The notes below the pieces were generated by a model that was not told the origin of the DNA, made no database searches, and worked only from the letters and a program-made list of their open reading frames with translations. A program made the position numbers and the translations under genes. A stretch of DNA of 34,926 nucleotides from Corallococcus carmarthensis (GTDB taxonomy: Bacteria; Myxococcota; Myxococcia; Myxococcales; Myxococcaceae): assembly GCF_003611695.1 (NCBI RefSeq), contig NZ_RAWE01000093.1, forward strand, positions 1-34,926, written 5' to 3'. This document shows positions 2,543 through 15,556 of the stretch, in pieces. Numbering within the stretch: position 1 is the stretch's first letter; every line of letters begins with the position of its first letter.

Positions 2543-3562
2543 TCAGGACGCGCGGCCCGCCCTTGCAACCAACGCGCTGCCCCGGGTCCCCGCGTACACC
2601 AACGCGTGCTCCACGATGTGGCCCGCGATGTCCTGGCCGGTGGCGCCCTCCAGGCCCTCGAAGCCGGGGCTGGAGTTGATCTCCATCAGGCGCGGGCCTT
2701 CGCGGCCCTCCAGCATGTCCACGCCCGCGACCTCCAGGCCGATGATGCGCGCCGCCTTCACCGCGGCCTCCACGTAGGCGGGAGGCAGGGTGATGGCGCG
2801 GCCCTCGCCGCCGCGGTGGATGTTGGAGCGGAACTCGCCCTTCTTCGCCTTGCGGCGCATGGCGCCCACCACGGTGTCGCCCACCACCAGCGCGCGCACG
2901 TCGCGGCCCTCGCTCTCCGCGACGAACTCCTGGAGGACGATCTCCTGGCCCAGGTCCCAGAAGGTGTCGAGGATGGTCTGCACCTCCGGCAGCGTGTGGG
3001 CGATCATCACGCCCACGCCCTGGGTGCCCTTGATCAGCTTGATGATGACGGGCAGTCCGCCCACCTCCTGCACCAGCTTGCGCACGTTACCGCGGTCGTG
3101 CGCCATCACCGTGCGGGGCATGTCCAGGCCCGCGCGGGCCAGGAACTGCAGCGCGCGCAGCTTGTCGCGGCTGCGCGCGATGGCCGTGGGCGGGTTGAGC
3201 ACCGGCACGTCCATCATCTCGAAGTGGTTCACCACCGCCAGGCCGTACGCGGTGATGGACGCGCCGATGCGCGGAATCACCACGTCCACGCCCTTCACCT
3301 CCGCGCCGCGGTAGGTCATGCGCGGCTTGCCGCGGGCCAGCAACAGGCAGCAGCGCAGCGTGTCGAAGACGAGCGCACGGTGGCCCCGGGCCTTGATGGC
3401 CTCCACCAGCCGGCGCGTGGAGTACAGCGAGCGCTTGCGGGACAGGATGGCGACGGTCTTCTTCGCGCGGGGCCGCTTGGGTCGCGGCGCGTCACCGCGC
3501 TCGGGTGCCTGTGCGCCAGGCGGAACGGGCGCCTTCTTCGACTGGACTTTTCGGGGGGGCAT
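2543..3562 (-). CDS. rimK: RimK-family ATP-grasp ligase (ribosomal S6 glutamate ligase-like)
   Basis: 339 residues, start ATG at 3562. After a basic, Pro-rich N-terminal tail (residues 1-35) comes the RimK pre-ATP-grasp domain (TVAILSRKRSLYSTRRLVEA), then the ATP-grasp fold: the glycine-rich nucleotide loop IIKLIKGTQGVGV (173-185), QEFVAESEGRDVRALVVGD (211-229), RRKAKKGEFRSNIHRGG and the Mg2+-binding segment VDMLEGREGPRLMEINSSPG (281-300). These are the family hallmarks. RimK adds glutamates to the C-terminus of ribosomal protein S6; relatives ligate amino acids to other acceptors, so the exact substrate is uncertain. It is divergent from the sigma-54 activator at 3640, with 77 bp between. 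No Shine-Dalgarno is obvious, so the tail length may be over-called. Confidence 0.88.
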   Translation of the reverse strand: MPPRKVQSKKAPVPPGAQAPERGDAPRPKRPRAKKTVAILSRKRSLYSTRRLVEAIKARGHRALVFDTLRCCLLLARGKPRMTYRGAEVKGVDVVIPRIGASITAYGLAVVNHFEMMDVPVLNPPTAIARSRDKLRALQFLARAGLDMPRTVMAHDRGNVRKLVQEVGGLPVIIKLIKGTQGVGVMIAHTLPEVQTILDTFWDLGQEIVLQEFVAESEGRDVRALVVGDTVVGAMRRKAKKGEFRSNIHRGGEGRAITLPPAYVEAAVKAARIIGLEVAGVDMLEGREGPRLMEINSSPGFEGLEGATGQDIAGHIVEHALVYAGTRGSALVARAGRAS

Positions 3563-3639: not shown

Positions 3640-5076
3640 ATGACCGCACCGAACCCGCATCCCGACGACATCCACACCAATCCAGGAGACGTCGGCCTCG
3701 AGCTGTCGTCCCAGTCCCCCCTGTTGGGGGAGACGCTGGTGGTGGATCCGCGCGCCACCGTGAAGCTGCACAAGTGCCGGCTCCTGGTGACGTCGGGGCC
3801 GGACACCGGGCGCTCCATGGCCAGCGACAAGGAGCGGCTTCGCTGCGGCGCCCACCCGGGCAACGACCTGGTGCTGGTGGAGGACCGCACCGCCAGCCGC
3901 CACCACTTCGAGGTCCAGTACACCGAGCGCGGCTACCTCCTGGTGGACCTGAACTCCACCAACGGCACCTTCCTGGACGGCCGCCGCATCGAGCGCGCCT
4001 ACCTGTCCCCGGGTTCGCAGATCCGCGCCGGCTCCTCCGTCATCACCTTCGCTCCGCTGGATGAAGAGGTGGCGGTGGAGCCCGACCGCGAGGGCGAGCT
4101 GTGCGGCATGGTGGGGCAGAGCGTGAAGATGCGGCAGGTGTTCGGGCTCATCAAGCGCATCGCGCCCATGGACGTGTCCGTCATCATCCAGGGGGAGACG
4201 GGCACGGGGAAGGAGCTGGTCTCCAGCGCCATCCACGAACTGTCCGGCCGCAAGAAGGGCCCCATGGTGGTGCTGGACTGCGGCGCCATCCCGCCCAACC
4301 TCATCGAGTCCGAGCTGTTCGGCCATGAGAAGGGCGCCTTCACCGGCGCGACGTCCAGCCGCCCCGGCGCCTTCGAGCGCGCGCAGGGCGGCACCATCTT
4401 CCTGGACGAACTGGGCGAGCTGCGCCTGGACCTGCAGCCGAAGCTCCTGCGCGTGCTGGAGAACCGCGAGGTGCGCCGGGTGGGCGGCAACGACGTCATT
4501 GAAGTGGACTGCCGCGTCATCGCCGCCACCCACCGCGATCTGGTGAAGGAGATCGCCGCGGGCAACTTCCGCGAGGACCTCTACTTCCGCCTGTCCGTCA
4601 TCCACATCCAGCTGCCGCCGCTGCGCCAGCGCCGGGACGACATCCCGCTCATCCTCAAGCGGGCGCTGGCGGAGCCGGAGGTGGTGGAGACGCACGGCCG
4701 CAAGCGCTTCTCCGCGGAGGCCCTGGGGCTGCTCATGGCCTACGCCTGGCCCGGCAACGTGCGCGAGCTGATGAACGTCCTCTCCCACGTGCTGACCTTC
4801 TCCGACGAGGGCGAGGAGATATTGCCCTCCCACCTGCCCCCGCGCGTCCGGGGCCAGGCCCGCGAGGGGCCGCTGCCCTTCAACGAGCACCTGGCCTTCA
4901 AGGATGCCAAGGAGCAGCTCCTGGAGAACTTCGAGCGCGAGTACGTCACCAGCGTCCTCACCCGCTGCGAGGGCAACCTGTCCCGCGCCGCTCGGGAGAG
5001 CGGGCTGCACCGCAAGTCCATCGAGCGGCTGGTGAAGAAGTATCAGCTCGACGCCAAGGGCCTGAAACCCCGCTGA
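3640..5076 (+). CDS. FHA-domain sigma-54-dependent transcriptional activator
   Basis: 478 residues from the ATG at 3640. Residues about 45-140 form a forkhead-associated (FHA) phosphothreonine-binding domain (RCGAHPGNDLVLVEDRTASRHH... LNSTNGTFLDGRRI split over 68-117). Residues about 157-385 are the AAA+ domain: Walker A GETGTGKE (185-192), an intact sigma-54 contact loop GAFTGA (232-237), Walker B GTIFLDEL (251-258), the arginine segment REDLYFRLSV (311-320) and sensor II GNVRE (372-376). Residues 446-467 are a Fis-type helix-turn-helix. It should bind upstream of a sigma-54 promoter and open it by ATP hydrolysis, with phosphothreonine input in place of the usual receiver domain. FHA activators are typical of myxobacteria and are thought to link Ser/Thr kinases to sigma-54 control. 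It lies just upstream of the pseudopilin operon, but I found no -24/-12 site before that operon. Confidence 0.93.
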   Translation: MTAPNPHPDDIHTNPGDVGLELSSQSPLLGETLVVDPRATVKLHKCRLLVTSGPDTGRSMASDKERLRCGAHPGNDLVLVEDRTASRHHFEVQYTERGYLLVDLNSTNGTFLDGRRIERAYLSPGSQIRAGSSVITFAPLDEEVAVEPDREGELCGMVGQSVKMRQVFGLIKRIAPMDVSVIIQGETGTGKELVSSAIHELSGRKKGPMVVLDCGAIPPNLIESELFGHEKGAFTGATSSRPGAFERAQGGTIFLDELGELRLDLQPKLLRVLENREVRRVGGNDVIEVDCRVIAATHRDLVKEIAAGNFREDLYFRLSVIHIQLPPLRQRRDDIPLILKRALAEPEVVETHGRKRFSAEALGLLMAYAWPGNVRELMNVLSHVLTFSDEGEEILPSHLPPRVRGQAREGPLPFNEHLAFKDAKEQLLENFEREYVTSVLTRCEGNLSRAARESGLHRKSIERLVKKYQLDAKGLKPR

Positions 5077-5083
5077 AACATCG

Positions 5084-5100
5084 CCGTTGCACGGTTTTTT
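5084..5100 (+). terminator. Possible weak intrinsic terminator
   Basis: A 4-bp stem (CCGT/ACGG, 5084-5087 and 5091-5094) with a 3-base loop is followed directly by TTTTTT (5095-5100), 8 bases after the stop of the FHA activator. The T-run is striking in this GC-rich sequence but the stem is short. Confidence 0.35.
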
Positions 5101-5246
5101 CACCGGGGGTGTCGCATCCCAGGAAGTTTCCATGGAGCCCGTCCTCTGCGACACTCCACGCCCCCCCTTCGGACCCCGACGCAGTGTGTCGGCGGTCACT
5201 TGACGGATACTGCGAGATTCCCCCATCCCGCAGGATGAGCTTCTGT

Positions 5247-6053
5247 ATGAGCGCACGATCCCCCCGTGAAGCAGCCGAGTCCGGCCAGGCCCTGGTAGAG
5301 GCCGCGCTGTCGCTGCCTCTGGTCGTGTTCCTGATCCTCGGTGCGTTGCAGCTCTTCCTGATGATGCAGGCGCGGGTGATGACGCACTACGCGGCCTTCC
5401 GGGCGACGCGCGCGGGCAGCGTGGCGCACGGGGACTGCGAGCGGATGACCCACGCGGCCATCCTGGCGCTGATTCCGACCTTCCACTCGTTCATGGGGCA
5501 GGGGACGGGGTCGCTCAACGGTCCGCTGGGCCGCGGCGCGGGTTCGGACGCGCCCCGGCTGCTGGCGGATGCGTTCGCGGCGCGGATGAACAACCGCTAC
5601 GCGGGCTCTGGCGGTCCGGGCCCCGGCATGGACGGCGTGCACAACCGCAGCATCGTCTGGATCCTGCGGGACCTGGCGGGCGGCGGCGTGGACAGCCCCG
5701 AGGACAGCGACTTCGATCGGCCGGGGCACCTGCGGCGGCTGGAGGTGCAGCTGGTGTTCTGGTACCCGCTGCGCATTCCGTTCGCCAACTGGGTGATGTC
5801 GCGCATGTTCCTGGCGCACTTCGGCCTGCGTCCCTACACGGACGCGAACCCGCTGCTCGTCGCCGAGCGCAACGCCAACTGGAACAGCGGTGAAGTGACG
5901 ACGTCGCACGTGCTGGACGGCGAGCTGGCCGCGGAGCTGGCGGACCGCGTGAACGCCCGGCAGTACGTCTTCCCCATCATCACCACGTTCACCATGCGGA
6001 TGATGACGCCCGTGAAGTCGCGTTTCTTCGCCACCATGAACTGTCCCCGGTGA
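5247..6053 (+). CDS. TadE-like pseudopilin protein, first gene of the pseudopilin/CX3C operon
   Basis: About 268 residues from the ATG at 5247; another in-frame ATG lies at 5235. AGGA at 5232-5235 serves the later start better. The N-terminus (ESGQALVEAALSLPLVVFLI, then LGALQLFLMMQARVMTHYAA and FRATRAG) has the TadE/TadG signature: a short basic leader, G-Q-A-L-V-E, one hydrophobic helix, then an Arg-rich helix of the A-x-R-A-x-R-A-G type. TadE-like proteins are minor pseudopilins of Tad/Flp tight-adherence pili. The extracytoplasmic part (about 220 residues) matches no domain I recognise and ends in Cys-Pro-Arg. It overlaps the next gene by at most 4 bases. No secretin, CpaF ATPase, TadB/C or prepilin peptidase gene is in the window, so any assembly machinery must be encoded elsewhere. 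Confidence 0.8.
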   Translation: MSARSPREAAESGQALVEAALSLPLVVFLILGALQLFLMMQARVMTHYAAFRATRAGSVAHGDCERMTHAAILALIPTFHSFMGQGTGSLNGPLGRGAGSDAPRLLADAFAARMNNRYAGSGGPGPGMDGVHNRSIVWILRDLAGGGVDSPEDSDFDRPGHLRRLEVQLVFWYPLRIPFANWVMSRMFLAHFGLRPYTDANPLLVAERNANWNSGEVTTSHVLDGELAAELADRVNARQYVFPIITTFTMRMMTPVKSRFFATMNCPR

Positions 6054-6058
6054 AAGCC

Positions 6059-7729
6059 ATGAAGCGCTCCTCCCCCCAGCGCGGTCAGACCCTGGTCCTG
6101 TTCGTCCTCAGCATGCTGCTGCTCTTGCTGATGGTGGCCCTCACGCTGTCGTTCACCATGAAGGTGCGCGAGCGCATCGAGGTGCAGACGGTGGCGGACG
6201 CGGCCGCGTACTCCAACGCGGTGGCCACGGCGCGCACGTTCAACACGCTCGCCGTCTCCAACCGCGCGGAGATCGCCCACATGGTGGCGAACGCCGGCGC
6301 GGCCAGCCTGCTCAGCTGGGCGAGCCTCTACCGGGGCGAGTTGAACGCGGCGAAGATTGGCTACGGGGCGTGGCTGCCCGTCTATCAGGCGTTCGCCACG
6401 GCGGGGTGCCCCTGCGCCTGGAGCAACGGCTTCTGCGCCCGCATGTGCCAGTGCGGTCTGCGCGGAGTGGGTGACCTGGGGCGGCTGATTGGCACGCTGC
6501 AGCGCGAGGACATGCGCGTGGAGGCCGTGTTCCAGGCGATGGATCCGATGGTGGGCCTGCAGATGCGCCTGCACCAGGTGGCGGCGGGTGCGCTGTATGC
6601 CTCCTCCCTGGCGGACTACATGAGCCTCGAGGACAAGGTGGGCGACCAGGAATTCGCCAACGACATCCTGGGGGACCTGGTGCCGGGGAAGAACCCGCGC
6701 GACGCGGGGTGGTTGGCGCCGTCCGCGGGCAACGTCTCCCGGAACGAGCTGGCGGACAACACGGCGTGCCTGGGTGGCGGCGCGGTCTGTGATCCGCTGC
6801 CGCTGACGGTGGCCCACGCCGTGGACGCGGCGATGGGCAGCCGTGGCTTCACCTTCGTCACGTCGCGCTTGCTCCAGCAGTACGTCGCGCACGAGGCGAA
6901 CCTGGCCTTCGTCATTCTGCCTCCGGACATCGTCACGCTCCCGTTCGCGGCGGGCACGGCCCACTTCGGCAAGCCGATCCTCCAGTACTCGTTCCTTCCC
7001 CCCTACGCTCCCGCCGTCTCGGCCGAAGACGAGGGCGTCGTGGCCTTCATCTACAACCACATCGCGCATGGCGGTGGGCCGCCGTGCCCGGTGATGGTGG
7101 GCGGCACGGTCCCGACCATGGCCTTGTTCGCGGCCTCGGGTGGCATCATGCCCACGCCCACGCATATGTGGCTGGGCGGCACGGACCCGGCGCCCTTCGC
7201 GCGGCACATGCTGGCGCCGTGTCTGGGCGGCCCGTCCAGCTGCCCGGGCATCTGGCCGCCGTTCATGGACTACAACCTGACGGAGCTGTGGCCCAACGGC
7301 GCGGACAACAACTACGGGCAGCCGAAGAACTTCGCGGTCATCCAGCGCGACCGCAGCACCATGTCCGCCATGCAGCAGGACCCGTGGAACCTGGCGTTCC
7401 GCTTCCGCTTCAAGGCGAGCAACCCGAACCCGAACGCGGGCAGGTTCGACAACACCACCGTCACCATGGCGGACGGCGTCACGCCGCTGGGCATCCAGAC
7501 GGCGCTGTCCACGGGCATCGCGTACTACCACCGTGGCCGCAGCCTGGGCATCTCCCACTGGAGTGAGCCGCCCAACCTGCTCAACCCGTATTGGCGCGCC
7601 ACACTGGTGCCGGTGGACACGGACGAGTCGGGTCTGGATGACGCCATCAACGCGTTGGGGGCCAGCTCTCCTGCCTCCGCCGCCACCATCCAGGAGCTGC
7701 GGCGCGTGGGCTTCAAGGGGTTCCAGTGA
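6059..7729 (+). CDS. TadG-like (Tad N-terminal domain) pseudopilin-like protein
   Basis: About 556 residues. The ATG at 6059 is chosen; a GTG at 6050 overlapping the previous stop (GTGA) is an alternative and suggests translational coupling. The N-terminus (QRGQTLVLFVLSMLLLLLMV) followed by VQTVADAAAYSNAVATARTF matches the Tad-domain pattern of a hydrophobic helix followed by the 'Q-x-x-A-D-A-A-A' segment. The large extracytoplasmic region is unassigned. It contains a compact six-cysteine patch (GCPCAWSNGFCARMCQCG, DNA 6405-6456) and further Cys pairs, implying disulfide bonding outside the cytoplasm. It sits between two TadE-like genes, probably in one transcript. A von Willebrand domain, frequent in TadG, is not apparent. 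Confidence 0.78.
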   Translation: MKRSSPQRGQTLVLFVLSMLLLLLMVALTLSFTMKVRERIEVQTVADAAAYSNAVATARTFNTLAVSNRAEIAHMVANAGAASLLSWASLYRGELNAAKIGYGAWLPVYQAFATAGCPCAWSNGFCARMCQCGLRGVGDLGRLIGTLQREDMRVEAVFQAMDPMVGLQMRLHQVAAGALYASSLADYMSLEDKVGDQEFANDILGDLVPGKNPRDAGWLAPSAGNVSRNELADNTACLGGGAVCDPLPLTVAHAVDAAMGSRGFTFVTSRLLQQYVAHEANLAFVILPPDIVTLPFAAGTAHFGKPILQYSFLPPYAPAVSAEDEGVVAFIYNHIAHGGGPPCPVMVGGTVPTMALFAASGGIMPTPTHMWLGGTDPAPFARHMLAPCLGGPSSCPGIWPPFMDYNLTELWPNGADNNYGQPKNFAVIQRDRSTMSAMQQDPWNLAFRFRFKASNPNPNAGRFDNTTVTMADGVTPLGIQTALSTGIAYYHRGRSLGISHWSEPPNLLNPYWRATLVPVDTDESGLDDAINALGASSPASAATIQELRRVGFKGFQ

Positions 7730-8721
7730 TGCACAGCCACCTTCGTCGTCACCGCCGGCAGGCGCGGGGCCAGTCCATCGTCGAGGCGGCCCTCGGCGTC
7801 ACGCTGTTCATCACCATCCTGGTGTTCGGCATCCACTTCGCGGAGGTGGGCTTCCTGTCGCTGAAGGTGCAGGAGGCCGCCGTGTCCGCGCTGTGGAACG
7901 GCACGCACGGAGAGATGCACGACATCCCTGCGGACTATGGCGAGGCGCATGACTCCATGCGGCGCGCGGGCGAGGACGCGCAGGCGCGGTACGCGGACTT
8001 CAACGGCCTGTCGTCCGTCAACCACGGTGACACCATCACGCAGGTGTTCACGCGGGGCTCGGACCTGCGCGTGAGCTGCGACCGCAACGGGGGCCTGGAC
8101 TGGGATGGCCCCGTGCTGACCCGGCTGATCTACCGCGACGAGGGCGGCACGGCGTGCACGTCCCAGGCGAACCTGAGCTCCTGGAACATCCCCACCCGGT
8201 TCCTGGACCAGAGCTCGGAGACCGGCCTGTACAACGAGCAGCACCAGGACGCGGCCAACGCCAACATCCAGGTGTGTGGCATTGGCCGCGCGGTGGGTGG
8301 CACCTGCCGGGGCCGCTTCTCCATGCTCGTGGATGACTGGGGCCTGTCGAACGAGCTCGAATCCTCCATGTGTGTCCTGTTCCAGGACCTGCCGCTGCCG
8401 TGCACCAACGGGCCGTTCTACGCGGCCACGAAGGGCGTCTACGAGCCCACCACGCTGCTCATCCCGACCTACGCCAGCTTCCTGGCCATGGACGCCCTCT
8501 TCATGAATCCGCTGCCGCCCCTGGTCTTGATGCAGCGGGAGAACACCTTCTGGATGAGCGCGGCGGGTGAGGAGAGCCAATTCATGCAGGCCTTTATGAG
8601 GCCCGCGCCCCTGGGCAACCTGTGGAACACGTCGCCCGGCGCTCTGATTGGCATCACCACGCCCCATTACGGTCTGGGCTATCTGGACCGCAATGGCTGT
8701 TTCCTTGGAAAGGATTGCTGA
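7729..8721 (+). CDS. TadE-like pseudopilin protein, third of the set
   Basis: 330 residues. The ATG at 7729 shares its A with the stop of the preceding gene (TGATG), so the two are translationally coupled; a GTG at 7726 is also in frame. The N-terminus (ARGQSIVEAALGVTLFITIL, then VFGIHFAEVGFLSLKVQEAA) is a TadE-like leader and helix with G-Q-S-I-V-E. The remaining ~280 residues are extracytoplasmic with several Cys (CDRNGG, ACTSQ, QVCGIG, GTCRG, MCVLF, PCTNG) and a C-terminal CFLGKDC. The function is not recognised beyond a structural or minor pseudopilin role. It shares the cysteine-rich exported character of its neighbours. The next gene begins 2 bases after its stop. Confidence 0.78.
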   Translation: MHSHLRRHRRQARGQSIVEAALGVTLFITILVFGIHFAEVGFLSLKVQEAAVSALWNGTHGEMHDIPADYGEAHDSMRRAGEDAQARYADFNGLSSVNHGDTITQVFTRGSDLRVSCDRNGGLDWDGPVLTRLIYRDEGGTACTSQANLSSWNIPTRFLDQSSETGLYNEQHQDAANANIQVCGIGRAVGGTCRGRFSMLVDDWGLSNELESSMCVLFQDLPLPCTNGPFYAATKGVYEPTTLLIPTYASFLAMDALFMNPLPPLVLMQRENTFWMSAAGEESQFMQAFMRPAPLGNLWNTSPGALIGITTPHYGLGYLDRNGCFLGKDC

Positions 8722-8723
8722 AG

Positions 8724-9053
8724 ATGAAGATGCGAAGCCTGCTGTCGGGTGGAGTGCTGGCGTTGGTGCTGGGTGTGTGCCTGACGGCGTCTCCCGCGCG
8801 CGCGGACAGCAATTCGTGCAACACGGACTGCGCGACGAAGAACGGGGACACGCTCAACGCCTGCATCACCGCCTGTCCGGCGCCGGGCAGCCCGGGTGAC
8901 GCGAAGGACAGCAGCCGCACCTGCTCCGCGCGCTGCGCCCAGAAGTTCCAGGCCCAGTTCAACCAGTGCAAGGCCCGCTGCCCCAAGCCGGAGGGCGACA
9001 CGGGTCCGAAGTCGGGCAAGTCCGTCAAGGCCGCGCGGTCGCACCGGCAGTAG
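8724..9053 (+). CDS. Secreted eight-cysteine protein with a doubled CX3C hairpin motif (copy A)
   Basis: 109 residues, start ATG at 8724, two bases after the preceding stop. A signal peptide (MKMRSLLSGGVLALVLGVCL... ASPARA|DSN) is followed by eight cysteines: C32, C36, C47, C51 and C67, C71, C82, C86. Each quartet is exactly C-X3-C-X10-C-X3-C, the spacing of alpha-hairpinin or twin-CX3C helical hairpins, in which two disulfides staple two antiparallel helices. The linker between quartets is 15 residues and the tail is basic. A paralogue with the same two quartets and a shared KFQ in the second one is at 9787. I do not recognise a named bacterial family. Possible roles are a periplasmic chaperone for the pseudopilins, a metal-binding protein or an extracellular structural or toxic peptide; none is demonstrated. 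Confidence 0.85.
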   Translation: MKMRSLLSGGVLALVLGVCLTASPARADSNSCNTDCATKNGDTLNACITACPAPGSPGDAKDSSRTCSARCAQKFQAQFNQCKARCPKPEGDTGPKSGKSVKAARSHRQ

Positions 9054-9066
9054 GAAGGAACCGGGG

Positions 9067-9756
9067 ATGAAGCGTTTGATCGGGCGCTGGAGCCTGTTGC
9101 TGGCGCTGGTGGGGGCCGCCCCCGCGTGGGCCCAACGGGCCAACTTCACCTGGGACATCCCCAAGACCGTCAGCGTCGTGGATGTGCCGGGGCAGGTGGA
9201 CGCCAATGGCGTGCCGGTGAAGCTGCTCGCGGTGCGCAGCAAGGAGAAGGCGCAGGTCATCCTCCAGAGCGTGGTGGACCGCTTCCAGTCCTGGGGCTTC
9301 TCGGTGCAGGAGGCGTACAAGCAGCCGCAGCTCTTGCGCGAGCCCATGGTGACGGGCCTCGACACGCGCAACTTCATCTCCTACACGGCCATCCTCCAGG
9401 TGAACCCGGACGGCACCACCACGGTGTTCCTGGGCCAGGCGAACCTGGCTGCGGCGAAGGCCCCGCAGCCGGCCGGGCTGCCCGTCTTCCCTGGCGGCGC
9501 CGGGGTGCTGACGGCGCAGACGGAGGGCTCGCACACGGTGAGCTACTCGGTGCCGGGCAAGACGACCGCGGAGGTGGAGGCCTTCTACCGCGAGGTGCTC
9601 ACCAAGGCGGGGTTCAAGGAGATCCAACCCCGCGTGTTCAAGTCCTCCACGGAAGAGGTCTCGCTCACCCTGGGCGTCACCAAGGAAGGGCCGGTGGCGG
9701 TGCGGCTGGTGCGCCGGGCCGCGGCGTCGGACGATGGATTGACCCCGGGCGAGTGA
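9067..9756 (+). CDS. Exported protein of unknown function in the pseudopilin/CX3C operon
   Basis: 229 residues. The ATG at 9067 has a good AGGAAGGAA (9052-9060) 6 bases upstream. The N-terminus MKRLIGRWSLLLALVGAAPA followed by WAQ|RANF is a classical signal peptide with an A-x-A-type cleavage site and no lipobox. The mature protein seems to hold two alpha/beta modules: one around KEKAQVILQSVVDRFQSWGF, and one around TTAEVEAFYREVLTKAGFKE followed by beta strands (EEVSLTLGVTKEGPVAVRLV). Each has the helix ending in '-GF' that is common in small periplasmic substrate-binding or BON-like folds. There are no Cys, unlike its neighbours. It lies between the two CX3C paralogues (gaps 13 and 30 bp) and so is probably co-transcribed with them. 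Confidence 0.8.
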   Translation: MKRLIGRWSLLLALVGAAPAWAQRANFTWDIPKTVSVVDVPGQVDANGVPVKLLAVRSKEKAQVILQSVVDRFQSWGFSVQEAYKQPQLLREPMVTGLDTRNFISYTAILQVNPDGTTTVFLGQANLAAAKAPQPAGLPVFPGGAGVLTAQTEGSHTVSYSVPGKTTAEVEAFYREVLTKAGFKEIQPRVFKSSTEEVSLTLGVTKEGPVAVRLVRRAAASDDGLTPGE

Positions 9757-9786
9757 CGCCATCGGGCAAGGGAAGACGAGAGCGAC

Positions 9787-10068
9787 ATGAAGACGCGTAT
9801 CGCGGTGCGGGGCTGGCTGGGACTGATGGCGCTGGGCGCGGTGCTGGTGGCACCCCAGGCGCTCGCGGAGTCGTGCGACGACAAGTGCGCCATCACCGCC
9901 GCCTCCTCGCTCACGGCCTGTACGAACAAGTGCTCCGCGAAGAGCAAGGCGTGTATCGACCGCTGCACGAAGAAGTTCCAGGACGCGAAGGCGAAGTGCT
10001 CCAAGAAGTGTCCCAAGGGCAAGGGCAAGTCCACGCCGCACACGCACGACGACCACGACGAGGAGTGA
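9787..10068 (+). CDS. Secreted eight-cysteine protein with a doubled CX3C hairpin motif (copy B)
   Basis: 93 residues, ATG at 9787. A signal peptide ends at ALA|ESC. Cysteines C30, C34, C45, C49 and C56, C60, C71, C75 make two C-X3-C-X10-C-X3-C units joined by a 6-residue linker. Both 10-residue spacers are the same length as in copy A, and KFQ and CPK recur in the second unit, so the two are paralogues. The C-terminus turns into a Lys/Gly stretch and then PHTHDDHDEE, a His/Asp/Glu run that could bind divalent metal; copy A lacks it. It is the last gene of the operon, 54 bp before ileS. Confidence 0.85.
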   Translation: MKTRIAVRGWLGLMALGAVLVAPQALAESCDDKCAITAASSLTACTNKCSAKSKACIDRCTKKFQDAKAKCSKKCPKGKGKSTPHTHDDHDEE

Positions 10069-10122
10069 GTCGGCGCGTGTGATTGAAGGACCGGCGGGAG
10101 GGTGTTACGGGCGCTGCAAGCC

Positions 10123-13017
10123 ATGAGCGACGCCCCCTCCCGCAAGGACCTCGACGCCACCGTCCACCTGCCGCGCACGGAGTTCCCCATGAAGGGGAAC
10201 CTGGGCCAGCTCGAACCACGCCTGCTCGCCTGGTGGCGAGAGCAGGACGTGTGGAAGCAGCTGCTCGCGAAGAACGCGGGCCGTGAGCCCTTCGTGCTGG
10301 CGGACGGCCCGCCGTACGCCAACGGCCACCTGCACGCCGGGCATGCGCTCAACAAGGTGCTGAAGGACATCGTGGTGAAGTTCCGGAACCTCTCCGGACG
10401 CCCGTGTGACTTCATCCCCGGCTGGGACACCCACGGTCTGCCCATCGAGCAGGCGGTGGAGAAGCGCCTCAAGGAACAGAAGCTGGACAAGCGCACGTTG
10501 TCGCGCGACGCGCTGCTGGAGCGCTGCCGCGAGTACGCGCTGGAGTTCGTGGACATCCAGCGCGCGGAGTTCCAGCGGCTGGGTGTCTTCGGAACGTGGG
10601 ACGAGCCCTACCGGACGCTCGACTTCAGCTACGAGGCGCAGGAGGTGCGCGAGCTGGCCGCGTTCGCGCGCCGGGGCATGCTGTACCGGCGCAAGAAGCC
10701 CGTGGCGTGGTGCCTCCAGGACCAGACCGCGCTCGCGGAAGCGGAGGTGGAGTACGCGGAGCACACCTCGCCGTCCGTGTACGTGGCCTTCGACGCGGGG
10801 CCGGAGCTGGTGGATCGGCTGTCTCAGCTGAAGGGGCAGCGCGTGTCCTTCGTCATCTGGACCACCACGCCCTGGACGCTGCCGGCGAACCTGGCCATCG
10901 CGGTGAACCCCACGTTCGAATACGTCTTCTACCGGCTGGAGGACCGGGTCCTCTGCGTGGCGAAGGACCTGCTGGCGAAGGTGCTGGCGGAGGTGAAGTC
11001 GGACGAGCTCGCCGTGAAGCACGTGCAGCTCCCCACGGGGGAGGTGTCGTCACCGGCGCTGGTGGATGCCTCCCGCATCCTCGCGTACGCGACGGGCGAG
11101 GACCTGGAGCACGTGACGTATCAGCACCCGTTCCTGGAGCGGCAGGGGCGCGTGGTGCTGGGCGAGCACGTCACGCTGGATGCGGGCACGGGGCTGGTGC
11201 ACACGGCGCCGGGACATGGCCAGGAGGACTACGAGGTCGGCCTCAAGTACGGCCTGGACATCTACAACCCGGTGCGCGCGGACGGCCGCTACGACGACAC
11301 GGTAGGCGAGGTGCTCGCGGGCCGGCGCGTGTTCGAGGCGAACCCGGTGGTGCTGGACCTGCTGGTGCAGCGGGGCGCGCTGCTCAATGACAGGTCAGAC
11401 ACCCTCACGCACAGCTATCCGCACTGCTGGCGCTGCCACCAGCCGGTCATCCAGGCGGCGACGTACCAGTGGTTCATCCCGATGGACGCGCTGTTCCACG
11501 GCACGCAGACGTTCCGGCAGGTGGTGCTGGAGCAGGTGGACAAGGTCCAGTGGGTGCCGTCGTGGGGACAGTCGCGGATCCGTGGCATGCTGGAGGGCCG
11601 CCCGGACTGGTGCATCAGCCGGCAGCGCAGCTGGGGCGTGCCCATTCCCATCGCGTACTGCGACGGATGCGACGACGCGGTGGCGTCCCCGGAGGTGATG
11701 GAGCGGGTGGCGGCGGCGGTGGAGAAGGAGGGCGCGGGCGTGTGGTACCGCACGCCGGTGAAGGAGTTCCTCGGGGAGGACTTCACGTGTCCGCGCTGCG
11801 GCAAGGGCGAGTTCCACCGCGAGACGGACATCCTGGATGTGTGGTTCGACTCGGCGTGCATGGCGTCCGCGGTGCTGGAGAAGCGGCAGCGCGTCCCGGC
11901 GGACCTGTTCCTGGAGGGGAGTGATCAGCACCGGGGCTGGTTCCATTCCTCGCTGCTGGTGTCGGTGGGCACGCGCGACGTGGCGCCCTACAAGGCATGC
12001 CTCACGCATGGCTTCGTGGTGGATGGCCAGGGCGAGAAGATGTCCAAGAGCCGGGGCAACACGGTGGCGCCGGACAAGGTCATCCAGCAGTACGGCGCGG
12101 AGGTGCTGCGCCTGTGGGTAGCGGCGAGCGACTACCGCAACGACGTGCGCCTGTCGGACGCCATCCTCAAGGGCCTGTCGGAGGGCTACCGGAAGATCCG
12201 CAACACGTTGCGGTACGCGCTGGGCAACCTGCAGGACTTCGACCCGGCGAAGGACGCGGTGGCTGGGGATGCGCTGTTGCCCCTGGACCAGTGGGCGCGC
12301 GGACGGCTGGCACAGGTGGCCGCAAGGGTGCGGCAGGCGTACGAGGATTATGAGTTCCACCTCGTCTACGCGACGGTGGTGGACTTCTGCGCCAATGATT
12401 TGTCGGCCGTGTACTTCGACATCCTGAAGGACCGGCTCTACACGGCGAAGCAGGACGGTCCCGCGCGGCGGGGTGCGCAGACGGTGCTGCACGAGGTGCT
12501 CACGGTGCTGCTGCCGCTGCTGGCGCCGGTGATGAGCTTCACGTCGGAAGAGGCCTGGCAGCACCTGCCGGGCGAGCGCGCGAAGAGCGTGTTCCTGGCG
12601 GGCTTCGCGGATGTGCAGGCCACGATGCCGCCGGAACTGGAGGCGCGCTACGCGAAGCTCTTCGCGGTGCGCAGCGCGGTGCAGGGCGTGCTGGAGGTCG
12701 CGCGGCGGGACAAGCGCATCGGTGCGTCACTGGAGGCCCGTGTTGTGCTGAGCGCCACGGGCGCGGTGCGGGAGGTGCTGGAGGCGAACCTCGCGGAGCT
12801 GCCCGGGCTGTTTATCGTGAGCCAGGTGGAGTTGGCGGAGGCTCCGTCCGAGGCTGCGAAGGCGCTGGAGGTTTCACAGGCCTTCGGTGACGGTGCGTCG
12901 CTTTCCGTGGAGGTGCTGCCGGCTCACGGCCAGAAGTGCCCACGCTGCTGGGTGTATTCCGATGCGGTGGGGCAGGGCGGGGACGTGTGCCTCAAGTGCC
13001 GTGAGGCATTAGGCTGA
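10123..13017 (+). CDS. ileS: Isoleucyl-tRNA synthetase
   Basis: 964 residues; the ATG at 10123 is preferred to a GTG at 10102. This class I aminoacyl-tRNA synthetase charges tRNA-Ile. It carries the N-terminal PYANGHLHAGHALNKVLKDI segment with the HIGH-type motif HAGH (71-74), the editing (CP1) domain with TTTPWTLPANLAI, the catalytic WCISRQRSWGVPIP segment, and KMSKS (639-643). The C-terminal zinc finger (CPRCWVYSDAVGQGG... CLKC) places it with the bacterial, mupirocin-sensitive type (IleS1) rather than the resistant eukaryote-like type. Length and domain order are standard. In many bacteria ileS is followed directly by lspA; here about 5.4 kb of other genes lie between them. A strong hairpin follows the stop. 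Confidence 0.98.
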   Translation: MSDAPSRKDLDATVHLPRTEFPMKGNLGQLEPRLLAWWREQDVWKQLLAKNAGREPFVLADGPPYANGHLHAGHALNKVLKDIVVKFRNLSGRPCDFIPGWDTHGLPIEQAVEKRLKEQKLDKRTLSRDALLERCREYALEFVDIQRAEFQRLGVFGTWDEPYRTLDFSYEAQEVRELAAFARRGMLYRRKKPVAWCLQDQTALAEAEVEYAEHTSPSVYVAFDAGPELVDRLSQLKGQRVSFVIWTTTPWTLPANLAIAVNPTFEYVFYRLEDRVLCVAKDLLAKVLAEVKSDELAVKHVQLPTGEVSSPALVDASRILAYATGEDLEHVTYQHPFLERQGRVVLGEHVTLDAGTGLVHTAPGHGQEDYEVGLKYGLDIYNPVRADGRYDDTVGEVLAGRRVFEANPVVLDLLVQRGALLNDRSDTLTHSYPHCWRCHQPVIQAATYQWFIPMDALFHGTQTFRQVVLEQVDKVQWVPSWGQSRIRGMLEGRPDWCISRQRSWGVPIPIAYCDGCDDAVASPEVMERVAAAVEKEGAGVWYRTPVKEFLGEDFTCPRCGKGEFHRETDILDVWFDSACMASAVLEKRQRVPADLFLEGSDQHRGWFHSSLLVSVGTRDVAPYKACLTHGFVVDGQGEKMSKSRGNTVAPDKVIQQYGAEVLRLWVAASDYRNDVRLSDAILKGLSEGYRKIRNTLRYALGNLQDFDPAKDAVAGDALLPLDQWARGRLAQVAARVRQAYEDYEFHLVYATVVDFCANDLSAVYFDILKDRLYTAKQDGPARRGAQTVLHEVLTVLLPLLAPVMSFTSEEAWQHLPGERAKSVFLAGFADVQATMPPELEARYAKLFAVRSAVQGVLEVARRDKRIGASLEARVVLSATGAVREVLEANLAELPGLFIVSQVELAEAPSEAAKALEVSQAFGDGASLSVEVLPAHGQKCPRCWVYSDAVGQGGDVCLKCREALG

Positions 13018-13100: not shown

Positions 13101-15449
13101 CTACTTCGTGGTCCTGATGCGAGTGCAGGGCGGACCGGATTCCGTTCCCCCGAACCATTTGGGATGATTGTGTCTGTCATTGACGCAGATCTTCTTGATG
13201 CACTCGCCTCTCCCGGATGCGGCAGACCCATGCCGATTTTCGCCCAGCCCGTTGAATCCAGTTCCCTCGGTGGTGGAGCACAAAGTGAGCCCAAGGGGCT
13301 CCTCATGCTCGTCAGTCAGTGAATGCCTGATGTGCCGCTGTCCTGGCGGGTTGGGTTTGATTAATGCCTGCGCAGAATAGCGCATCAGGCAGTCATGAGC
13401 CCCACTGAATACGCTTTGTGTTCCATCTTGTGCGCAGCGGGCAGCAACATTGAATCGCTGAATCTTCGGTGCGAACGCTTCAGGCTGCTTGGGCTGCAGG
13501 AACGACGAGGGAGAATAGATCATCTCCACGATGTCTCCTGTTGCGTAGCCTGATGGATCAAGAACCTTCTCGCTGGTGCTCGCAATTTCGCTACCATCTA
13601 CAGTCGTCGTCCATTCGACTTTGAGGAGTCCACCTTCACCGTGATGGGGGACGTTGGCGGAATGGGCGAGTTCATGCGCAACAGTGTGCTCAAAAAGTGT
13701 CGGCTGCGACTCAGAATTAGACAGGTTAGCTGAGATGCCGACGTACTCAATGTTGCCAGGAGTGCTTGCTCCGCCTGGGGTCTTTGAAGTGCCACTGCCA
13801 TCGGTGAGCCATCTCAAGATAACGAAGTGTTGGTCGTTGAGATGGGCAACCTGACCATGATTCGCATTGATGAGACGAGTGGAGGGATTGCCTTCTGCCT
13901 CCTTGAGTTGGTGGACCTTGAGCCCGGTGACGTTGGTGAAGCGGTTGATTCCATCGACGATGCCAGGAGGAGTACCAATCCGGTTGACGAGGAAGTAGTC
14001 AACGTCGTCAGGATTGGTCCTGGAGTGGATTCCGTTGATGATGAACCCTCGATACTCCTCTTGGAGTGTCAGTCCGTCGCCCCCCTCTTTCGGGTCGCGA
14101 TGGCCACGGCCTCCCGGGAGAAGCTCACTGTCGTCGTCATCGCCAAGACCGAAGGCCCCTTTCATCTCGATCCATGTCCTGGCGATCTTTGAGTTCTCAG
14201 CGCGCCTGGGAATCCGCAAGGGTTCGTTCAGGGCGAGTTCAGGATCGGTTCCCCCGCCATAAACCTTCGCGAGGACGACGGATTGGATGACCTTGCCGTT
14301 GGGGAGCTTGGCCACCGCCCGGATGCTGCCGTAGGCGCCGTAGTCGAAGCTGGACACCATCGCGTAGGCATAGGTCGAGTACGAACCTTCGGGTGTCCTG
14401 AGCTTGTTCTTGTCCTCGACGACGTAGCCTGGATTCTTGCTTTCTTCGAACTGAAGATCCTGTGGACTGTCCGCGGCCCCCTCGACTGGCATGTTCATGG
14501 CAATGCCATCAATGCTCGACGAGTCGAGAAAGAAAGTGATTTCGCTGGCGGCATCTGGGGCTGTGGGGACCAGCGGAACAAGCGCGGCCCTCACGCGAAT
14601 GAAACTCCCCGCGGCAGGAAGTTCGCCCGGGTTGGCGAGGCTATTGGGAAGGGGACTCTGGGGACCAAAGGGAAGCCAGGTGTCGTAGTCCTCTGCATCC
14701 AAGACAAGCTGGACTTCGGTTTCCTCTGGCCAGAGATCCCACGAGATCTCCCACTCAATGGGTTTCGCGCCCCACTCGACGGGGGAGGGCATGCTTGAAA
14801 CGACTGCCCCATTCACCGTGATGAACTGCTTACGGCCCTTGAGATGCAAGGGTTCATCTACGCCAGGGAGTGGGAAGGTGAAGAAGTCCGCAGGGAACAC
14901 GCTGGGAAACATGGGGCCAGCGACCTCAGACGGATAGGTTTGATCCAAGAATCTCGCAACGGCAGCGCAGCTGAGAAGGGTTCCCTGGTCGGTATAGCCT
15001 TTGAACTGGATGGTGGAGTCAGAAGGGAACGTCATGTGAGGTGTTGCGAAGGCGCTGGCTGTCTCCGCACATTTCCCCTCGTTTGATTCCACCACACCTT
15101 CATTGCCAGACACAACATAGCTGGACGACAGGTTGTAGAAGCCTGAGTCGACGCTGCCGAACCCCATGGAGAGGAAAGGAATCATTATGACCCGCAGAGG
15201 GGCCTGATAGAAAAGGCTGTCCGACCAGGTGAGGTTATTGGCCGGTTCACCGATGCTGCCGACCGAGCGGGTCTTGACGCGGTAGGTGCCGACCCAATTG
15301 GTGACGGCAAGGACCCGGTCCTTGGGCGTTTCGAGCGCTTGAAGCACGAACCCCGAGGGGGTGGATTCTTGGGAGGGTTTGTCTTGGCCTGTGCAGGCCG
15401 CGAGGAATGCAAGACCCATGATGAGGCAATGGCGAGGGGGTAATTTCAT
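13101..15449 (-). CDS. Lipoprotein zinc metalloprotease-like protein
   Basis: 782 residues from the ATG at 15449; the frame is open to 15494. MKLPPRHCLIMGLAFLAAC is a signal peptide with lipobox L-A-A-C (Cys19), so it is probably lipid-anchored. The zinc-protease motif H592-E-L-A-H596-S-A-N-V-P-H602 (DNA about 13644-13676) fits HExxHxxxxxH, as in metzincins, but Asn replaces the usual Gly at position 8. The ~570 residues before it are not recognised and include an acidic DDDDSELL stretch. The C-terminus has several Cys (LCSTTEG, GECIKKICVN, PPCTRI). The gene is clearly AT-richer than its neighbours, with many A/T-ending codons, suggesting recent transfer. It could be a predatory or self-protein-processing protease; the substrate is unknown. 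Confidence 0.82.
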   Translation of the reverse strand: MKLPPRHCLIMGLAFLAACTGQDKPSQESTPSGFVLQALETPKDRVLAVTNWVGTYRVKTRSVGSIGEPANNLTWSDSLFYQAPLRVIMIPFLSMGFGSVDSGFYNLSSSYVVSGNEGVVESNEGKCAETASAFATPHMTFPSDSTIQFKGYTDQGTLLSCAAVARFLDQTYPSEVAGPMFPSVFPADFFTFPLPGVDEPLHLKGRKQFITVNGAVVSSMPSPVEWGAKPIEWEISWDLWPEETEVQLVLDAEDYDTWLPFGPQSPLPNSLANPGELPAAGSFIRVRAALVPLVPTAPDAASEITFFLDSSSIDGIAMNMPVEGAADSPQDLQFEESKNPGYVVEDKNKLRTPEGSYSTYAYAMVSSFDYGAYGSIRAVAKLPNGKVIQSVVLAKVYGGGTDPELALNEPLRIPRRAENSKIARTWIEMKGAFGLGDDDDSELLPGGRGHRDPKEGGDGLTLQEEYRGFIINGIHSRTNPDDVDYFLVNRIGTPPGIVDGINRFTNVTGLKVHQLKEAEGNPSTRLINANHGQVAHLNDQHFVILRWLTDGSGTSKTPGGASTPGNIEYVGISANLSNSESQPTLFEHTVAHELAHSANVPHHGEGGLLKVEWTTTVDGSEIASTSEKVLDPSGYATGDIVEMIYSPSSFLQPKQPEAFAPKIQRFNVAARCAQDGTQSVFSGAHDCLMRYSAQALIKPNPPGQRHIRHSLTDEHEEPLGLTLCSTTEGTGFNGLGENRHGSAASGRGECIKKICVNDRHNHPKWFGGTESGPPCTRIRTTK

Positions 15450-15556
15450 GCTTGGGGTACTGGTCTCCAAATGGGGGTCTGTCGTTGCAGGCATTCAGAC
15501 GCTCCCCCACCCAATCCCTGAGCTTTGCCTTTAAATTATTTCCAGGCGTCTGTTTT

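Follow-up and report, generated by a model that had tools for sequence, protein, structure and literature searches.

Paired exported eight-cysteine proteins with a predicted cysteine-ladder hairpin in a Kil-like tip operon of Corallococcus carmarthensis

Two small, exported-looking proteins, each with eight mature cysteines that are predicted to run as a ladder along one long helical hairpin, are encoded among genes resembling those for the tip of the Kil (Tad-like) predation pilus in Corallococcus carmarthensis. The genes lie in a stretch of 34,926 nucleotides (contig NZ_RAWE01000093.1, positions 1 to 34,926), referred to as the window. Copy A (8724-9053, + strand) encodes a protein of 109 amino acids, and copy B (9787-10068, + strand) encodes one of 93 amino acids with a His/Asp/Glu tail, PHTHDDHDEE, at its C-terminus. 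Copies A and B appear to be good candidates for unstudied parts of the prey-killing machine.

The cysteines of copy A (residues 32, 36, 47, 51 and 67, 71, 82, 86) form two quartets with gaps of 3-10-3, separated by a linker of 15 residues. Those of copy B (residues 30, 34, 45, 49 and 56, 60, 71, 75) form two quartets of the same spacing with a linker of 6. Export was judged by eye from the signal-peptide-like stretch at each N-terminus. When the residues after position 27 were shuffled, the double cysteine pattern was obtained in 0 of 200,000 shuffles for each copy. The two copies are paralogues with 38-39% identity (E 6.2e-5 and 3.5e-4). A first-pass annotation of the window had described two exported small proteins with eight cysteines in 3-10-3 quartets, and the positions, the alignments and the shuffling confirm this description. 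That annotation would have been contradicted by a loss of the spacing among homologues; the spacing is kept in the relatives. The same genome holds a third ladder protein, with six cysteines, at a second tip-like locus (L011).

The quartets very probably belong to one long helical hairpin per protein, as judged from structure models and from the spacing in relatives. In the AlphaFold models, built with 31 or 30 aligned sequences, DSSP assigned two helices to residues 29-49 and 61-84 of copy A and to residues 27-47 and 54-74 of copy B. The overall confidence was modest (mean pLDDT 66.6 and 67.6, the signal, turn and tail being poorly predicted; pTM 0.43 and 0.45), and the core blocks of both copies had a pLDDT of mostly 82-89. 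Each cysteine quartet is placed on one predicted helix, or within two residues of a helix end, in both copies; the linker of variable length is therefore predicted to be the turn. Helix 1 would carry C1-C4 and helix 2 would carry C5-C8, each set on one face, and the mirror pairs C1-C8, C2-C7, C3-C6 and C4-C5 could make four disulfide rungs. Such a structure would form a rigid rod, short at roughly six helical turns, with hardly any need for a hydrophobic core.

The spacing of the relatives points to the same arrangement. Among 75 distinct exported eight-cysteine cores, the gaps within the two arms were 10/10 in 55, 6/6 in 17, 9/10 in 2 and 10/8 in 1; equal arms were thus present in 72 of the 75, and linkers ranged from 4 to 18. 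This comparison left both gaps free but admitted CX3C motifs only, and the majority of its loci had been picked for their resemblance to 3-10-3 proteins; it does not include the CX4C relatives (L140, and the 3-6-3-5-3-6-4 proteins of L238-L240). After clustering at 70% arm identity, 35 of the 38 clusters had equal arms, a level reached in 0 of 20,000 permutations, with a p-value that serves only as a guide because the clusters are still related to each other. A separate ladder scan required mirror symmetry, and its list is no proof of symmetry. The cysteines of one arm fall on the same helix face with X10 (0-100 degrees) or X6 (0-60 degrees), but not with X7 or X8. The six-cysteine relatives found by similarity (L011, L042, L070, L084, L139, L145 and L153) all have the pattern 3-10-n-10-3; mirror partners are missing together, which fits the ladder. 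Counting missing cysteines by template fitting is ambiguous, since a 6-template also fits in the register of a 10-template and vice versa.

The first-pass annotation had read each quartet as a hairpin unit of its own. Two tandem alpha-hairpinins per protein would agree with the spacing class, as CX3C-X10-CX3C lies within the spacing of alpha-hairpinins. However, the models, the coupled inner gaps with equal arms, the varying linker, the palindromic six-cysteine relatives and the profile register all place the turn in the linker. The tandem arrangement is contradicted by the models and the arm spacing and was rejected as almost certainly wrong. From the earlier assignment to the helical CX3C class of alpha-hairpinins and small Tims, the helical nature and the spacing class are retained, and the two units per protein are dropped.

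The profile A1, made from 31 ladder relatives, was compared with PDB sequences. Alpha-hairpinins ranked at the top (E 0.0037-0.15), led by a vicilin hairpinin (6o3q, E 0.0037) and BWI-2c (2lqx, E 0.018), and Tim9/Tim10 followed at E 0.18-0.22; all of these matches are weak and driven by cysteines. In the three printed alignments, the CX3C-loop-CX3C of the hairpinin was matched to C3xxxC4-linker-C5xxxC6. Helical hairpins stapled by CX3C motifs are known as such. Plant alpha-hairpinins (vicilin-buried peptides, BWI-2c, luffin P1) have a helix-turn-helix in which CX3C faces CX3C across the turn, a feature that the ladder proteins share in prediction only. Alpha-hairpinins have two CX3C motifs and four cysteines, whereas the ladder proteins have four and eight; each ladder arm has in addition a second CX3C, set off by X10 or X6, and the proteins come from bacteria and are exported and encoded in operons of minor pilins. 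Mitochondrial small Tims (Tim9/Tim10, PF02953) have the helical hairpin and the twin CX3C in common with the ladders, but carry one CX3C per helix where the ladder proteins carry two; the PF02953 scores of the two copies were 9.5 and 15.5 bits, below the gathering score of 22.3. Twin CX9C (CHCH) proteins have two helices with mirror-paired disulfides, but the ladder spacing of CX3C-X10-CX3C or CX3C-X6-CX3C contains no CX9C.

No curated family model in Pfam or NCBIfam reached its cut-off for copy A or copy B, with weak E-values only; the first-pass annotation had named no described bacterial family with this double unit next to Tad-like pseudopilins. The radical SAM target family with Cys-Xaa-Xaa-Xaa repeats (TIGR04117) shares the repeated CX3, and 7 of the 30 relatives compared matched it weakly, with E 0.0012 at best; copy B scored 17.6 bits against a cut-off of 50, copy A had no match, and no radical SAM gene was noticed beside the ladder genes. 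Vanabin-2 was matched weakly by 8 of the 31 relatives, with a best E of 0.0057. Foldseek with both models returned nothing at E <= 0.001, and the best VIA Z values of the two models, 5.7 and 6.5, are within the range of common helical pairs. Small Tims and hairpinins were marginal or missing in these structure searches, which excludes nothing. The best Foldseek match of copy B was acrorhagin I, which is non-significant (E 3.5). A fold like that of the T3SS needle was rejected for copy A, as its weak matches to a needle model and to rod/needle chains (2lpz E 5.1 and 7bin E 6.1 in Foldseek; 2lpz VIA Z 4.8) did not stand out from unrelated rows. Plasmid records searched for ladders with copy B as the query gave no match.

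The genes of the locus from the activator to ileS all lie on the + strand. A sigma-54-type activator with an FHA domain (3640-5076) is the conserved left flank of the cassette. It is followed by a TadE-like, KilM-like minor pilin (5235-6053, start codon judged by eye), a large Tad/TadG-like, KilN-like minor pilin of type I (6059-7729) and a TadE-like, KilL-like minor pilin (7726-8721). Copy A, an exported protein of unassigned family termed DUFw (9067-9756) and copy B come next, and isoleucyl-tRNA synthetase (ileS, 10123-13017, named from its sequence) is the conserved right flank. The gaps are 2 bp between the last TadE-like gene and copy A, 13 bp between copy A and DUFw, 30 bp between DUFw and copy B, and 54 bp between copy B and ileS. 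PF07811 (TadE, E 2.1e-7) and PF13400 (Tad, E 9.9e-8) were above the Pfam cut-off and the KilL-like gene was below it (E 0.041), so that TadE/Tad domains are found in two of the three pilin genes. A simple scan of 4900-10300 found no sigma-70-type promoter, a result of little weight for this organism. DUFw had no family above cut-off in Pfam or NCBIfam. Profile comparison shows it to be homologous to the protein that occupies the corresponding position in tip3-like loci (probability 94%, E 1.3e-7), and it accompanies tips more widely than the ladder does.

Some further features of the region were recorded. The type-I KilN-like protein has an invariant cluster of five cysteines at residues 117-132, spaced C-1-C-6-C-3-C-1-C in six aligned sequences; with this odd number, one cysteine could be free for a partner. 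A DsbA-family protein (1683-2450) and a RimK-type ligase (2543-3562) are conserved next to the tip locus in the majority of the relatives seen. The DsbA-like protein is not favoured as an oxidase of the ladders, since it has no signal peptide by eye. On the other side, 13101-15494 (- strand) encodes a lipoprotein-like product with a HELAH zinc-protease-like motif and a weak Pfam match to Reprolysin_5 (E 0.2).

The pilin genes resemble those of a studied predation system. As reported in the parts of Herrou et al. 2025 (PMC12075869) covered here, the Myxococcus Kil pilus is primed by four KilLMN minor-pilin Tips; these Tips decide prey recognition and set prey range, and only three minor pilins are described there. 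The neighbours in the window share this anatomy of TadE-, TadG- and TadE-like genes. A tip3-like relative (L191) has a 59-amino-acid Flp-like gene at its end, as the same source reports for KilO (mxan_1150), and the second tip-like locus of the window genome has a 60-residue Flp-like gene beside its six-cysteine ladder. The parts of the paper covered mention predicted disulfides inside minor pilins and do not mention a small cysteine-rich partner; none came up either when the main text was searched for the words cysteine and disulfide. On the basis of Pfam domains, gene order and the Flp-like neighbour, rather than of the M. xanthus Kil sequences, the neighbours appear to be of the KilLMN type.

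The distribution of ladders was determined by searching 195 Myxococcota genomes with A1 at E <= 0.001. Matches were found in at least 57 genomes, of which 56 belong to the same family as the window; the count is a minimum, as the X6 ladders of G124, G133, G134, G135 and G137 were missed. The KilN profile matched in 128 of the 195 genomes at E <= 1e-10, and KilN-like genes are therefore commoner than ladders. By ladder similarity, 69 loci were selected, covering some of the A1 match sites, and 67 of these hold a ladder by pattern. A KilN-like gene lies within 2,699 bases of the ladder in 51 of the 67. The other 16 have no KilN: four are Corallococcus loci without the cassette (L079, L080, L081 and L225), and twelve are from other genera, where some ladders adjoin the sigma-54 gene and others adjoin unrelated genes. 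Among 20 further loci picked by KilN, a ladder was present in 3, all tip3-like (L187, L201 and L204), and by pattern in none of the other 17, which include tip2-like and tip4-like loci. Tips therefore work without a ladder. These 17 loci, about 0.29 Mb, are a rough background for the ladder pattern.

KilN matches fall into two classes by score. The top class (type I) comprises 33 loci above 800 bits, and an X10 ladder lies between the KilL-like and DUF genes in 33 of 33. The second class (type II) comprises 22 loci at 383-506 bits: a ladder lies within or next to 14 of them, none was seen in 7 (G061, G062, G064, G065, G098:C7 and G101 twice), and one ends too early to tell (G099). The ladder is of X6 type on the opposite strand in 11 of the 14 (G078, G082, G090, G091, G092, G102, G124, G133, G134, G135 and G137), and a co-directional 9/10 or 10/8 ladder is carried or adjoined in 3 (G098 and G100 twice). 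Misses are possible among the seven ladder-less loci, because two of the 11 X6 loci, L229 and L238, had escaped the first filter. The genomes are related, and the locus counts are non-independent events. Several arrangements stand out individually. Tandem tip cassettes lie between the sigma-54 gene and ileS at L073 (G098:C1), with one ladder after the first cassette and another between them. Two and three X6-type ladder ORFs lie in a row at L083 and L245, on the strand opposite the tip genes. A Myxococcus-type tip locus is present in BNCN01000008.1 (L212), a record titled Comamonas sp. KCTC 72670, and this title looks wrong.

Within Corallococcus, copy A and copy B behave differently. Across 16 genomes, type-I KilN (79-100% identity) is present in 10, a 39% relative in 2, and only tip2-like matches in 4. 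Copy A is found in all 10 genomes with type-I KilN and in 0 of the 6 others, but a ladder adjoins ileS in 16 of 16. In the four genomes without a cassette, the ladder on the ileS side is B-type by position and similarity (47-52% identity, linkers 11-16). The flanking DNA is 85-94% alike among Corallococcus, and in the six genomes without the type-I cassette this likeness stops at the cassette. The presence pattern and the flanking DNA therefore indicate that copy A goes with the cassette and copy B with the flank. A comparison of 5235-9756 with L082, L086, L079, L080, L081 and L225 shows a difference in what lies between the sigma-54 gene and ileS, where the tip cassette is swapped or missing. 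The cassette site linked to ileS is likely a hot spot for the swapping of prey-range genes.

Substitution rates were estimated as pairwise dN/dS (omega), which is crude in GC-rich genes. In Corallococcus copy A, omega was 0.26 (0.13-0.49) for the hairpin with cysteines left out and 0.49 for the signal; copy A is under purifying selection. In Corallococcus copy B, all eight cysteines are kept, and omega was 0.91 (bootstrap 0.57-1.52) for the hairpin, 2.26 (1.01-7.40) for the tail and 0.20 for the signal. For six B or B-like genes in genomes without the type-I cassette, the hairpin omega was 1.58 (1.12-2.15), and a separate estimate over 11 copy-B rows gave 1.16. The ladder omega was 0.80 in Myxococcus (7 of the 10 ladder rows of the clade) and 0.91 in Pyxidicoccus. 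In same-clade comparisons, omega was 0.32-0.51 for KilN, 0.06-0.08 for the sigma-54 gene and 0.16-0.26 for ileS. The ladder rates fit a surface engaged in conflict as well as a scaffold that accommodates change.

We favour, at about even odds, a role for the exported ladder hairpin as an accessory of its cognate tip that binds the minor pilins or helps to assemble them. The ladder would be made together with the tip cassette of the Kil predation pilus and would work outside the inner membrane on the KilLMN-type minor pilins of that cassette, and the DUFw protein probably acts with it. Copy A would be the cognate partner of the type-I cassette, and copy B would be a more rapidly diverging paralogue retained at the flank. 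Linkage and cassette matching argue for the accessory role; the existence of ladder-less tips and of ladders unaccompanied by a tip counts against it and leaves its chance near one half. About half as probable is a stronger form, in which the ladders are a cassette-matched part of the Kil pilus itself (X10 in the type-I version and in most cases X6 in type II), displayed or released at prey contact, with a fast-changing surface that meets the prey. A somewhat smaller chance is given to a secreted effector, a stapled mini-protein acting on prey after release or delivery where the Kil pilus makes contact. Comparable action is known from certain plant alpha-hairpinins and from stapled peptides of cnidarians. 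Export, a very stable predicted structure and the predation operon are consistent with an effector, as are the rates of copy B (constrained signal and kept cysteines beside a fast hairpin and tail, faster still without the type-I cassette), the ladder rates of Myxococcus and Pyxidicoccus, and the non-significant likeness of copy B to acrorhagin I. However, copy A is conserved, no immunity gene was identified, and a cystine scaffold may simply tolerate substitutions. The hairpin net charge among the compared ladder proteins varies from -2 to +8, and a common cationic toxin was therefore rejected.

Three further explanations are less probable than the accessory role. A general stapled envelope scaffold with no tip-specific job, found in tip operons partly by convenience or history, is unlikely. 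It would account for the 16 of 67 ladder loci without KilN, for ladders beside unrelated genes in several genomes, and for ladders that outlast the loss of the cassette (L079-L081 and L225). It does not sit well with the X10 ladder in every type-I locus, the exact co-occurrence of copy A and cassette across the 16 Corallococcus genomes, and the absence of the pattern from the rough background of 17 other KilN loci. A periplasmic chaperone of small-Tim type that keeps the hydrophobic helices of minor pilins covered until they are assembled is slightly less likely again: the partner genes encode membrane-anchored pilins, and there is weak likeness to the Tim9/Tim10 profiles and to the Tim10 Pfam model (15.5 bits), but the Pfam cut-off was not reached, and the consensus helices are very polar apart from the cysteines and one or two hydrophobic positions, which leaves little surface to hold a client. 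The chaperone and toxin ideas of the first-pass annotation are less favoured than the accessory role. The poorest prospect of the three is a metal-binding or redox-buffering protein. The His/Asp/Glu tail is kept within the Corallococcus B clade and the weak Vanabin-2 matches would agree with it, but among the rows compared the tail occurs only in Corallococcus copy B and B-like proteins and is absent from copy A, Myxococcus and other relatives, and the cysteines would be accounted for by the putative mirror-paired disulfides. Metal binding as a common function, proposed earlier for the pair, was rejected for this confinement of the tail.

Searches of literature listings and of locus tags, together with passages of PMC8460266, PMC4158809, PMC9548883 and PMC12075869, gave no description of these proteins. 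The literature so covered contained no doubled ladder from the tip operons of a predation pilus. A small, conserved partner that is encoded in the operon and follows the version of the tip would offer direct access to the assembly or arming of tips, and helical hairpins with four rungs would make a compact scaffold of natural origin. Because entire cassettes are exchanged between near-identical Corallococcus flanks, the evolution of prey range becomes testable. If the ladders are indeed a displayed or released part of the tip, they would represent a new kind of Tad-pilus tip subunit or effector, and prey range in these bacteria would be set in part by a cassette swapped at the ileS locus.
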